In this document: piece after piece, positions 53,197 through 55,420 of the stretch
Layout: the number at the start of each line of letters is the position of its first letter
Position numbering within the stretch: the stretch's first letter is position 1
Source: Agreia sp. Leaf283
GTDB lineage: Bacteria; Actinomycetota; Actinomycetes; Actinomycetales; Microbacteriaceae
Assembly: GCF_001422485.1 (NCBI RefSeq)
Contig: NZ_LMNF01000001.1
Coordinates: 1,709,057-1,773,056 of the forward strand
Length of the DNA stretch: 64,000 nucleotides
Direction of reading: 5' to 3'
The notes under the pieces: generated by a model
The model's database searches: none
The model's input: only the letters and a program-made list of their open reading frames with translations
Told to the model about the DNA's origin: nothing
Program-made: the position numbers and the translations under genes

Positions 53197-53553
53197 GTGA
53201 TCGTCGGCATCGGCGTCGACCTCGTCGACGTGCCCCGGTTCGTGCGGTCGATCGACCGCACGCCGGGTCTCGTCGAGCGCCTGTTCGCTGAGGGCGAACG
53301 CCGGCGCTCGCCTCGGTCGCTCGCCGCCCGGTTCGCCGCGAAGGAGGCGCTTATCAAGGCGCTCGGAGACTCCTCGGGATTCCGCTGGCACGACATGGAG
53401 GTCGTCACCGACGACGACGGAAAGCCGTCGTTCCTGCTCGGCGGGCAGGTCGCAGAGACCGCGCGCGCTCGCGGTGTGGGGGCGATCCACCTCTCGCTCA
53501 GCCACGACGGCGACTCCGCGTTCGCCTTCGTCGTCGCGGAGCGCACGCCGTGA
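53197..53553 (+). CDS. acpS: Holo-[acyl-carrier-protein] synthase
   Basis: A 118-residue enzyme that attaches phosphopantetheine to ACP. IVGIGVDLVDVPRFVRSID carries the Mg-binding Asp, and LAARFAAKEALIKALG carries the Glu/Lys motif. The end has HLSLSHDGDSAFAFVVAE. GTG at 53197 with GGGGCG nearby. The stop overlaps the first alanine racemase-like gene (GTGA). It lies next to coaA-glmS, linking coenzyme A and wall precursors by position only. Confidence 0.95.
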   Translation: MIVGIGVDLVDVPRFVRSIDRTPGLVERLFAEGERRRSPRSLAARFAAKEALIKALGDSSGFRWHDMEVVTDDDGKPSFLLGGQVAETARARGVGAIHLSLSHDGDSAFAFVVAERTP

Positions 53554-54662
53554 CCGTCGCAGACGGCGCGGCCCGCATTGCCCCGGAATCGGTGGCCATC
53601 GTCGACCTCGCGGCTGTCGCCCGGAACGTCTCCCGGTTCGTCTTGCTCGCAGACGGAGCCCAGGTCATGGTCGTGGTCAAGGCGAACGGCTACGGCCACG
53701 GTGCGGTCGAGGTGGCCCGTGCGGCCATCCAGGGCGGAGCCTCCTGGCTCGGCGTCGCCGATCTCGCCGAGGCGTTCGAGCTCCGCGATGCCCACATCGA
53801 CGCGCCCTTGCTCGCGTGGCTGCACGAGTCGCACGAGAACTTCACGGCGGCGCTCGAGGCCGGCATCGACATCGGCGTGAGCGACCTCGACCAGCTCGAG
53901 TCCGTCGTCCGTGCGCAGCACGCCGTCGGCGCGGGTCCGGCCTCCGTTCACCTCAAGCTCGACACAGGGCTTGGCCGGAACGGCGCCGACGAGCCGAACT
54001 GGGCTGCTCTCTTCGACGAGGCGCGTCGGCTCGAGCTCACCGGGGTGCTGCGCGTGCGCGGCATCTTCAGCCACCTCGCGAACGCGGACGACGCGGAGGA
54101 CGCCCTGCAGCTCGAGCGGCTCCACCGGGGCATCGAGGGCGCGCGGCGCGCGGGCCTTCAGCCGCAGCTTCGGCATCTGGCGTCGACGGCCGCGGCTCTT
54201 CGCCTGCCACCCATGCGACTCGACCTGGTGCGCATCGGCATCGGAGCCTACGGGCTCTCCCCGTTCGACGGCGGCGGCTCCGCCGAACTCGGGCTGCAGC
54301 CGGCCATGACGCTGCGCAGCACCGTCGTCGCCGTGGCTCCGTCGTCCGACGCGGATTTCGCAGCGCACTCGGGCATCGTGCCCCTGGGCTACGGCGACGG
54401 GATACCCCCGCAGGCCGCAGGCCGCATCCATGTCACCGGCGACGCCGGCCCGCTGCTCGTGACCCGAATCGAATCCGACCACCTCGTCGTCGAACCCGTG
54501 TCGCCGGGCAACGACGTGGTGCGAGGAGACGCCGTGACTCTGTTCGGCGACCCTTCCGAGGGGGTCACGGCCGTCGACGACTGGGCCAGGGCCGCCGACA
54601 CCATCAACTACGAGATCGTCACCCGCCTCGGCGACCGCGTGGCGAGGGAGTACGTCTCATGA
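53550..54662 (+). CDS. Alanine racemase homologue A: PLP-lysine subunit lacking the catalytic tyrosine
   Basis: A 370-residue fold-type III PLP protein. The barrel is complete: K44 and Y48 in VVVKANGYGHGAVE (PLP lysine, phosphate contact), K136/R143 in HLKLDTGLGRNGA, H175 in FSHLANAD, S212 in ASTAAAL and R228 in RIGIGAYGL. In the C-terminal domain the GxxVSYGxxY motif with the second catalytic base is replaced (AVAPSSDADF; no Tyr) and the MDQ motif reads SDH (IESDHLVV). Thus one of the two acid-base residues is missing. GTG overlaps acpS; the stop overlaps homologue B (ATGA). Confidence 0.92.
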   Translation: MTVADGAARIAPESVAIVDLAAVARNVSRFVLLADGAQVMVVVKANGYGHGAVEVARAAIQGGASWLGVADLAEAFELRDAHIDAPLLAWLHESHENFTAALEAGIDIGVSDLDQLESVVRAQHAVGAGPASVHLKLDTGLGRNGADEPNWAALFDEARRLELTGVLRVRGIFSHLANADDAEDALQLERLHRGIEGARRAGLQPQLRHLASTAAALRLPPMRLDLVRIGIGAYGLSPFDGGGSAELGLQPAMTLRSTVVAVAPSSDADFAAHSGIVPLGYGDGIPPQAAGRIHVTGDAGPLLVTRIESDHLVVEPVSPGNDVVRGDAVTLFGDPSEGVTAVDDWARAADTINYEIVTRLGDRVAREYVS

Positions 54663-55420
54663 CCGGCGTCGACACCGGGCTCGGTCGCGAGGCGGCCGTC
54701 GATCTCGGCGTGTTCCGCTCCAACGTGGCGCTCCTCGCTGCCCGCGCGGTCGGCGGCCCCCTCGTGATCGACATGACGGCGGATGCCTACGGACACGGAC
54801 TCGTACGGCTCGCGCGTGCGGCGGCCGAGTCGGGCGCCGACATCCTGAGCGTGCGCGACCAGGCCGACGCCGATGCCATCTCCGACGCGCGCATCGGCAT
54901 CGACGTGCACTGCTGGCAGACGAGGAGGTTCGCCGTTCCTCCCGCCGGATCCGGCATCGCCGCCTTCGGGTTCGGCATGGAGCTCACCGACGGGGCGCCC
55001 GACGGGGTCGTGCCGGTCATGCGGGTGTCGGCTCCCGTCCTCTCGGTCAAGAGGGTGCCGCAGGGCCACGGCGTCTCCTACGGCTTCGTGTACCGCACGC
55101 CGAAGGAGACGACGTTGGCGCTCGTTCCGCTCGGCTACGCCGACGGCCTTCCCCGGGCGGCGACGGGCTCGGGCCGTATGGCCGTGGGAGGCACGCAGTT
55201 CCCCGTCGTCGGGCGCATCGCCATGGACCAGGTCGTGCTCGACGTCGGCGATGCGCCGATAGCTCCCGGCGACCGCGCCGTCGCGTTCGGTGCCGGGCTC
55301 GACGGCGAACCCACGGCTGCGGACTGGGCCGCCGCGACCCGCTCGACGGCCGGCGAGATCCTCGCCCGCATCGGCCGACGTGTTCCCCGTCGCTACATCG
55401 ATCGAGAGGCGAGCCGATGA
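54659..55420 (+). CDS. Alanine racemase homologue B: tyrosine subunit lacking the PLP lysine, barrel shortened
   Basis: A 253-residue protein. The N-terminal part keeps only the first strands of the barrel: VIDMTADAYGHGLVRLARAA aligns with VVKANAYGHG, with Thr (T40) at the PLP-lysine position. Residues about 80-115 replace some 150 residues of barrel, so the carbamylated Lys, Arg, His and pyridine-Arg positions are absent. The C-terminal domain is intact: catalytic Y141 in GHGVSYGFVYRT, PLGYADGLPR, and M189-D190-Q191 in VGRIAMDQVVLDVG. ATG at 54659 overlaps gene A (ATGA). Alone it should be inactive; with A it supplies exactly what A lacks. Confidence 0.9.
   Translation: MTGVDTGLGREAAVDLGVFRSNVALLAARAVGGPLVIDMTADAYGHGLVRLARAAAESGADILSVRDQADADAISDARIGIDVHCWQTRRFAVPPAGSGIAAFGFGMELTDGAPDGVVPVMRVSAPVLSVKRVPQGHGVSYGFVYRTPKETTLALVPLGYADGLPRAATGSGRMAVGGTQFPVVGRIAMDQVVLDVGDAPIAPGDRAVAFGAGLDGEPTAADWAAATRSTAGEILARIGRRVPRRYIDREASR

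Follow-up and report, generated by a model that had tools for sequence, protein, structure and literature searches.

The question raised by this locus is how two adjacent alanine racemase homologues, neither of which carries a complete active site, can stand where most relatives have a single alanine racemase gene (alr). Alanine racemase is a textbook homodimer, a long-studied drug target and the target of D-cycloserine. The stretch analysed here (the window, 64,000 nucleotides of contig NZ_LMNF01000001.1 of Agreia sp. Leaf283, positions 1,709,057 to 1,773,056) carries the two homologues, genes A and B, at the standard alr locus. Our analysis predicts that A and B very probably form an obligate heterodimeric alanine racemase with one active site, and the strongest support for this is that relatives have naturally fused the same two halves.

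Complementary half-sites in A and B

Numbers given in brackets after a residue (Lys39, Tyr265 etc.) are known alanine racemase positions, and residues of A and B were checked codon by codon (Table 1). The reading frames agree with the initial annotation, which had described two adjacent alr homologues overlapping by ATGA, and the codons agree with its account of A as the chain with the pyridoxal 5'-phosphate (PLP) lysine, the carbamylated lysine, the arginine, the histidine and the pyridine arginine. Further residues on the PLP side of A are Tyr48 (Tyr43) and His175. Its description of the defects of A holds for the missing tyrosine at the VSYG site and for Ser309 in place of Met312, with one correction: Asp313 is retained, as is Tyr284, and the Arg290 position is lost (Pro287). 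B is as had been described, with Tyr141 and the Met-Asp pair, threonine at the lysine position and most of the barrel missing, on both the codon check and the Pfam matches; it also has Tyr160 (Tyr284), and Gly232 at the Tyr354 position.

The domain profiles follow the same division. A matches the Pfam N-domain profile over positions 1-220 of 220 (198.8 bits) and the C-domain profile over just 33-127 of 127; B matches the C-domain profile over 1-127 of 127 (126.6 bits) and the N-domain profile over just 1-75 of 220. Against the TIGR00492 equivalog cut-off of 168 bits, A scores above (224.6 bits) and B below (116.2 bits). Neither chain alone carries both Lys39 and Tyr265, A having Lys44 without Tyr265 and B having Tyr141 with Thr40; combined, they hold the full first-shell residue set of the Lys39 side and the Tyr265 side. 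In known Alr, one subunit contributes Lys39, Tyr43 and Tyr354 to a site and its partner adds Tyr265', Tyr284' and Met312' (PMC3485190, PMC3245724), and the residue sets of A and B follow this subunit division. No useful promoter or terminator signal was found.

Natural fusions and residue division across the family

Both halves are found in one fused protein in Gulosibacter and Pseudoclavibacter (18 of 398 family genomes). All 41 fusion protein clusters aligned have the same catalytic residues in either half, with no exception (P0017, 393 residues, stands outside this alignment), and AlphaFold predicts the fusion as one well-packed unit with a predicted template modelling score (pTM) of 0.91. 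P0136, encoded on a contig of 1.4 kb, begins like B but ends in an ordinary C-terminus; it is probably chimeric and was kept in alignment A2.

For the wider comparison, two sets of 46 chains each were aligned. The barrel-type set consists of 7 A, the N-halves of 18 fusions, 19 A' from pairs of a second kind (B'-A', described below) and 2 A' in fusions; the partner set consists of 7 B, the C-halves of 18 fusions, 19 B' and 2 B' in fusions. Both chains of G022 and the partner chain of locus L065, which is full length, lie outside these counts. Lys39, Tyr43, Arg136, His166 and Arg219 are present in all 46 barrel-type chains and Lys129 in 45; one of the 46 shows a tyrosine in the Tyr265 column, within a gapped stretch that has no SYG motif. 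The partner chains have Tyr265, Arg290 and Met312 in 46/46 and Asp313 in 45/46. The complementary residue division is not a matter of chance. Thr40 of B is taken from the codon check because, in the family alignment, the profile did not align what little remains of the N-terminal domain in B chains. The B' row L091 stands alone, as its contig ends there.

Conservation and selection in Agreia

All eight Agreia genomes of the sample were searched. The survey of Microbacteriaceae for the same pair that the initial annotation had called for yields the split pair, intact, in seven of these eight, plus the fused form in relatives; the eighth Agreia genome (G005) has two complete tandem genes instead (L050). 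The same residue pattern of A and B, including Tyr354 of A, recurs in all seven pairs, and the overlap is ATGA in six and GTGA in one. The other six pairs are 64-91% identical to the present one in A and 67-91% in B. The median ratio of non-synonymous to synonymous substitution rates (dN/dS, 21 species pairs for each gene) is 0.189 for A and 0.141 for B, compared with 0.054 for acpS, 0.192 for tsaE and 0.115 for tsaB nearby. A and B are thus under purifying selection and are not decaying. Two proteins labelled Clavibacter michiganensis, P0134 and P0255, carry Agreia-type B and B'; their source genome is probably a mislabelled Agreia.

Synteny and the search for a complete alr

The slot between acpS and tsaE, in the order glmS-acpS-(alr)-tsaE-tsaB-rimI-tsaD, is occupied by the Agreia pairs (7/7), the fusions (18/18), the tandem loci (13/13) and most single alr genes of the family, the exceptions among the latter being L075 and L176 (neither neighbour seen) and L088 (no tsaE seen). 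Neighbour gene names were confirmed for this order, tsaD excepted. Because the slot is common to both, the A/B pair corresponds to alr by position.

The genome comprises 3.98 Mb in 4 contigs and is 99.97% complete; the contig that carries the window is 1.95 Mb long. It had been stated at the outset that a complete alr elsewhere in this genome would speak against the pair; profile searches with PF00842 and PF01168 found none. The four PF00842 matches are A, B and the two chains of the second complementary pair on contig 2, and none of the four has Lys39 and Tyr265 together. The extra PF01168 matches are a YggS-family protein beside ftsZ, LysA and one weak match, an 869-residue frame with 25 bits to the N-domain only and no NCBIfam match. 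No D-amino acid transaminase was found at cut-off in the genome, and a D-Ala-D-Ala ligase was found above cut-off. A second D-Ala-D-Ala-ligase-like gene, on contig 4 (104299-105213), scores 210.3 of 245.65 bits, below the family cut-off.

The proposed heterodimer and its alternatives

In the proposed enzyme, A and B would bind each other, with A holding PLP in its barrel through Lys44, Tyr48, Lys136, Arg143, His175, Arg228 and Tyr354, while B would reach across the dimer interface with Tyr141 as second catalytic base, in the way that one subunit serves the other in known Alr. On the substrate side, B would likewise contribute Tyr160, Arg166, Met189 and Asp190 across the interface. Lys44 of A and Tyr141 of B would be the two bases of one site; the other would-be site, in which the truncated barrel of B faces the C-domain of A, is predicted to be dead. 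The substrate would be alanine, which agrees with the retention of Tyr354 in 7/7 A chains, and the product is likely D-alanine for the cell wall. The heterodimer put forward in the initial annotation is supported, as a prediction, by the natural fusions of the same halves, by the finding of no complete alr and by selection on both genes.

Several observations weigh against this proposal. The C-domain of A has not been stripped of every partner residue, as it keeps Asp313 and Tyr284, and the division is likewise incomplete among the barrel-type chains as a whole, where Asp313 is still present in 28/46 and Tyr284 in 15/46. The fusion is a proxy for the A+B complex; approximately unbiased (AU) tests give p = 0.52 for A and the fusion N-halves as one clade and p = 0.565 for B and the fusion C-halves as one clade, so that the fusion and the Agreia pair may stem from one event or from two. 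Other Alr-type genes occur in 10 of the 18 fusion genomes, so that the fusion need not be the sole racemase there. Finally, in a control genome, that of Corynebacterium glutamicum, the PF00842 search missed an Alr whose structure is known (2dy3), and the absence of a complete alr therefore rests on PF01168 too.

Retention of the whole PLP site, Tyr284 and Asp313 in A would also be expected if A were active alone, whether as a racemase or as a different PLP enzyme, using some other residue as second base, and if B were a regulatory or stabilising pseudoenzyme. Dead, merely activating paralogues are known, for example in trypanosomatid deoxyhypusine synthase (PMC3663545). However, a purely activating partner has no need for Tyr265, Arg290 and Met312, which all 46 partner chains keep, and Tyr265 is missing in 45 of the 46 rows of A and its analogues, making an autonomous A improbable. 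A heterodimer as described could instead act on a substrate other than alanine, or on several amino acids. That Tyr354 can be altered in such pairs is evident from the second pair, and lysine-preferring racemases are also altered at this position (PMC3485190). In A, on the other hand, Tyr354 is kept in all seven Agreia pairs, the pair occupies the alr locus and the genome searches found no further Alr of the Tyr354 type, and we consider a different substrate slightly less probable even than an autonomous A.

Since A and B each lack parts of the family, they might be taken for decaying remnants or for the product of a frameshift or assembly artefact. This is ruled out by their conservation in seven species at the identities given above, by dN/dS values of 0.14-0.19 and by the natural fusions, which have the same split, and the ATGA or GTGA overlap is kept in 7/7 pairs; decay of A or B under relaxed selection, which the initial annotation had named as a possible objection, is not what these values indicate. 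The heterodimer thus stays the preferred explanation of the A/B pair.

Table 1. Positions of the A/B pair, its key residues, neighbouring genes and the second pair (window numbering unless another contig is named)
Feature	Position	Strand	Check
Gene A, catalytic (PLP) chain, 370 residues, GTG start; full barrel, C-domain without the Tyr265 loop	53550..54662	+	
Gene B, partner chain, 253 residues, ATG start; first third of barrel domain, full C-domain with Tyr265, Met312, Asp313	54659..55420	+	
ATGA stop/start overlap of A and B	54659..54662	+	
A Lys44, PLP lysine (Lys39)	53679..53681	+	codon check
A Lys136, carbamylated lysine (Lys129)	53955..53957	+	codon check
A Arg143 (Arg136)	53976..53978	+	codon check
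A Arg228, pyridine arginine (Arg219)	54231..54233	+	codon check
A residues 257-277, shortened loop, no catalytic tyrosine (VSYG expected here)	54318..54380	+	
A Ser309-Asp310, replacing Met312-Asp313	54474..54479	+	codon check
A Tyr354 (Tyr354), specificity and PLP-phosphate residue, retained	54609..54611	+	codon check, alignment
B Thr40, where the PLP lysine is expected	54776..54778	+	codon check
B Tyr141, catalytic tyrosine (Tyr265)	55079..55081	+	
B Arg166, entryway arginine (Arg290)	55154..55156	+	codon check, alignment
B Met189-Asp190 (Met312-Asp313)	55223..55228	+	codon check
glmS, start of the conserved alr neighbourhood	51337..53187	+	
acpS (holo-ACP synthase), adjoins alr in relatives	53197..53553	+	
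tsaE, directly downstream of B, adjoins alr in relatives	55417..55911	+	
Second complementary pair B'-A', reversed order	locus L012 7483-9308; contig 2 of the same genome, about 319482-321307	minus	

Relation to known enzymes

A and B share with Alr/DadX (EC 5.1.1.1; TIGR00492, PF01168 + PF00842; PDB 1SFT, 1XFC, 1VFH, 5FAC) the fold, the PLP-site residues, the two-base Lys/Tyr site at the dimer interface and the acpS/tsaE locus. They differ in that the enzymes described, as far as the available accounts go, are homodimers in which each chain has both half-sites, whereas A and B have one half each. The family is known and its shared-site dimer is textbook knowledge; the division of the two half-sites over two genes appears to be new. 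Among the literature matches listed, which give titles and abstract openings and cover subscription journals poorly, there was no earlier report of a heterodimeric or split alanine racemase; database names for such proteins, where given, are alanine racemase, C-terminal-domain protein or hypothetical protein.

The closest logic to A/B appears to be that of serine palmitoyltransferase (SPT1/SPT2), a PLP heterodimer with one lysine. It differs in being eukaryotic and of an unrelated fold (fold type I), and both its chains are near full length, whereas B has lost most of the catalytic barrel. Of the features that mark an SPT-type pseudo-subunit, the lysine is observed in A only, and a need for both chains is suggested by conservation and by the fusion. 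SPT is described as a heterodimer of paralogues that has the PLP lysine in one chain and presumably one active site, placed at their interface; its relatives are homodimers (PMC6148460). Trypanosomatid deoxyhypusine synthase likewise pairs an impaired enzyme with an inactive paralogue, both essential, but it is described as a case of allosteric activation within a heterotetramer, in another enzyme with another cofactor (PMC3663545).

If correct, the A/B pair would be a rare case of an interface-shared active site divided between paralogues, with intermediates alive in sister genera, and a simple growth assay could directly test how obligate heteromers evolve, by complementary degeneration or by adaptive specialisation. 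Because each half-site can be mutated alone, it would also provide a ready single-site enzyme for mechanistic work.

Evolutionary origin

Two complete tandem alr genes are found at the locus in Herbiconiux, Subtercola, Planctomonas and Agreia G005. The first copy has all tested residues and Tyr354 (Trp in L280, H. moechotypicola); the second has all tested residues but Asp at 354 (4/4 in the family alignment and at 8 loci compared separately, of which L245 belongs to the same genome as G018). The tandem of G011 (L056) deviates, with Cys and Asn at the carbamylated Lys129 position and Asn for Asp313 in its first copy; it may show a further early step towards complementary loss.

In the barrel tree, A groups with copy 1 (Shimodaira-Hasegawa-like approximate likelihood ratio test, SH-aLRT, 87) and A' with copy 2 (98). 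The careful 56-row C-domain tree places the single alr genes and copy 1 on one side of a branch (97/90) and groups B with copy 2 (85/87); the latter grouping has an SH-aLRT of 98 in a 99-row quick tree and a support of 0 in a thinned 75-row quick tree. Taken together with gene position, this suggests that B descends from the second tandem copy. Long or near-identical rows were left out of the AU-test and careful-tree alignments, as was one L082 piece (frame broken, low-quality assembly) from the C-domain tree; L094 was dropped because it is the same gene as L177.

A and A' as one clade are rejected (AU p = 2e-5, quick tree), and therefore the split of the catalytic chain arose at least twice. 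For the barrels, this test rejects an origin of the second pair through duplication of the first; the partner-chain C-domains, which are short, do not reject one clade of both pairs (AU p = 0.618). Nor is a single A' clade that excludes the second tandem copies rejected (AU p = 0.125), so that A' may have lost its loop once or more often. Two complete tandem copies are the likely ancestral state, and the simplest reading of these sequences is tandem duplication followed by loss of opposite halves; most likely complete genes were duplicated first and each copy then lost the half kept by the other. The term subfunctionalised, applied to A and B in the initial annotation, fits the full-length tandem copies in relatives, and either change may have come first.

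A second complementary pair and D-diamino acids

In the second pair, B' (251 residues) and A' overlap by ATGA. They stand between a gyrB-like gene and murT/gatD-like genes, whose scores of 102 and 90 bits fall short of the NCBIfam cut-offs. The PLP residues are on A', which lacks Tyr265 and carries Glu at 354. B' supplies Tyr265 and Met-Asp, and its lysine position is taken by Arg. Pairs of this kind occur in Agreia, Leifsonia and Pseudoclavibacter, among others (19 A' rows aligned; named loci L202-L218 and L263), and position 354 is Asp or Glu in 21/21 A' chains, G022 not being alignable there. B' and A' are fused in one frame in L170 (G261) and L175 (G375), in the order opposite to that of the A-B fusions; the L175 fusion also has Ser at Lys129 and Asn at Asp313. 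In G015 (L065 2216-3502), B' is still full length with a dead barrel (Thr39, Phe43, Val129, Gln136) and appears to stand midway on the path from an intact gene to a shortened partner chain. A complete alr stands beside this kind of pair in some genomes (G008, G013, G015, G035), and Leifsonia aquatica and Leifsonia sp. 71-9 have it together with a complete alr with Trp354. In the 0.9-Mb genome G022 (L093), a diverged B'-A' pair provides the only PF00842 and PF01168 matches, its A' having Asn at Tyr43 and no alignable C-domain.

Tyr354 gates specificity (PMC3485190, PMC3245724). The lysine and broad-specificity racemases Lyr and Bar, in which Tyr354 is replaced on the Alr fold, are the basis for our reading of the second pair; they differ from it in being homodimers with Thr or Ala at 354, not Asp or Glu (PMC3485190). 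Published reports give L-diaminobutyrate (L-DAB) joined to D-ornithine (D-Orn) for Agreia walls (PMC5945732), DAB or D-Orn for Gulosibacter (PMC6113628), D- and L-DAB for Herbiconiux (PMC10011130) and D-ornithine for the wall of Microbacterium sufflavum (PMC10757982). With Glu at 354, and given the walls of Agreia, Gulosibacter and Herbiconiux, the second pair may make the D-diamino acid and is perhaps a D-ornithine racemase. A general rule linking Asp or Glu at 354 to D-diamino acids is weakened by M. sufflavum, which has a canonical alr at its one locus seen (L275). Should the second pair be a D-ornithine or D-diaminobutyrate racemase, it would be a candidate gene for the D-diamino acids of group B peptidoglycan.

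In the broadest view, on which we are evenly divided, the site would have been split at least twice in one family as a stable end state, and Agreia would use two obligate single-site heterodimers to make D-alanine and D-ornithine, the two D-amino acids of its wall besides D-glutamate. Every stage of the route would then survive among its relatives: a single gene, a complete tandem pair, a partner that is full length but has a dead barrel, split pairs, and fused proteins of either arrangement (A-B and B'-A').

Further full-length Alr-like genes occur at L186, L187, L188 and L189 (Pseudoclavibacter-type genomes) and at L072, L073 and L096. In these genes Tyr354 is replaced by Ala or His and Lys129 by Ser, Glu or Gln, and they are probably racemases of other amino acids.
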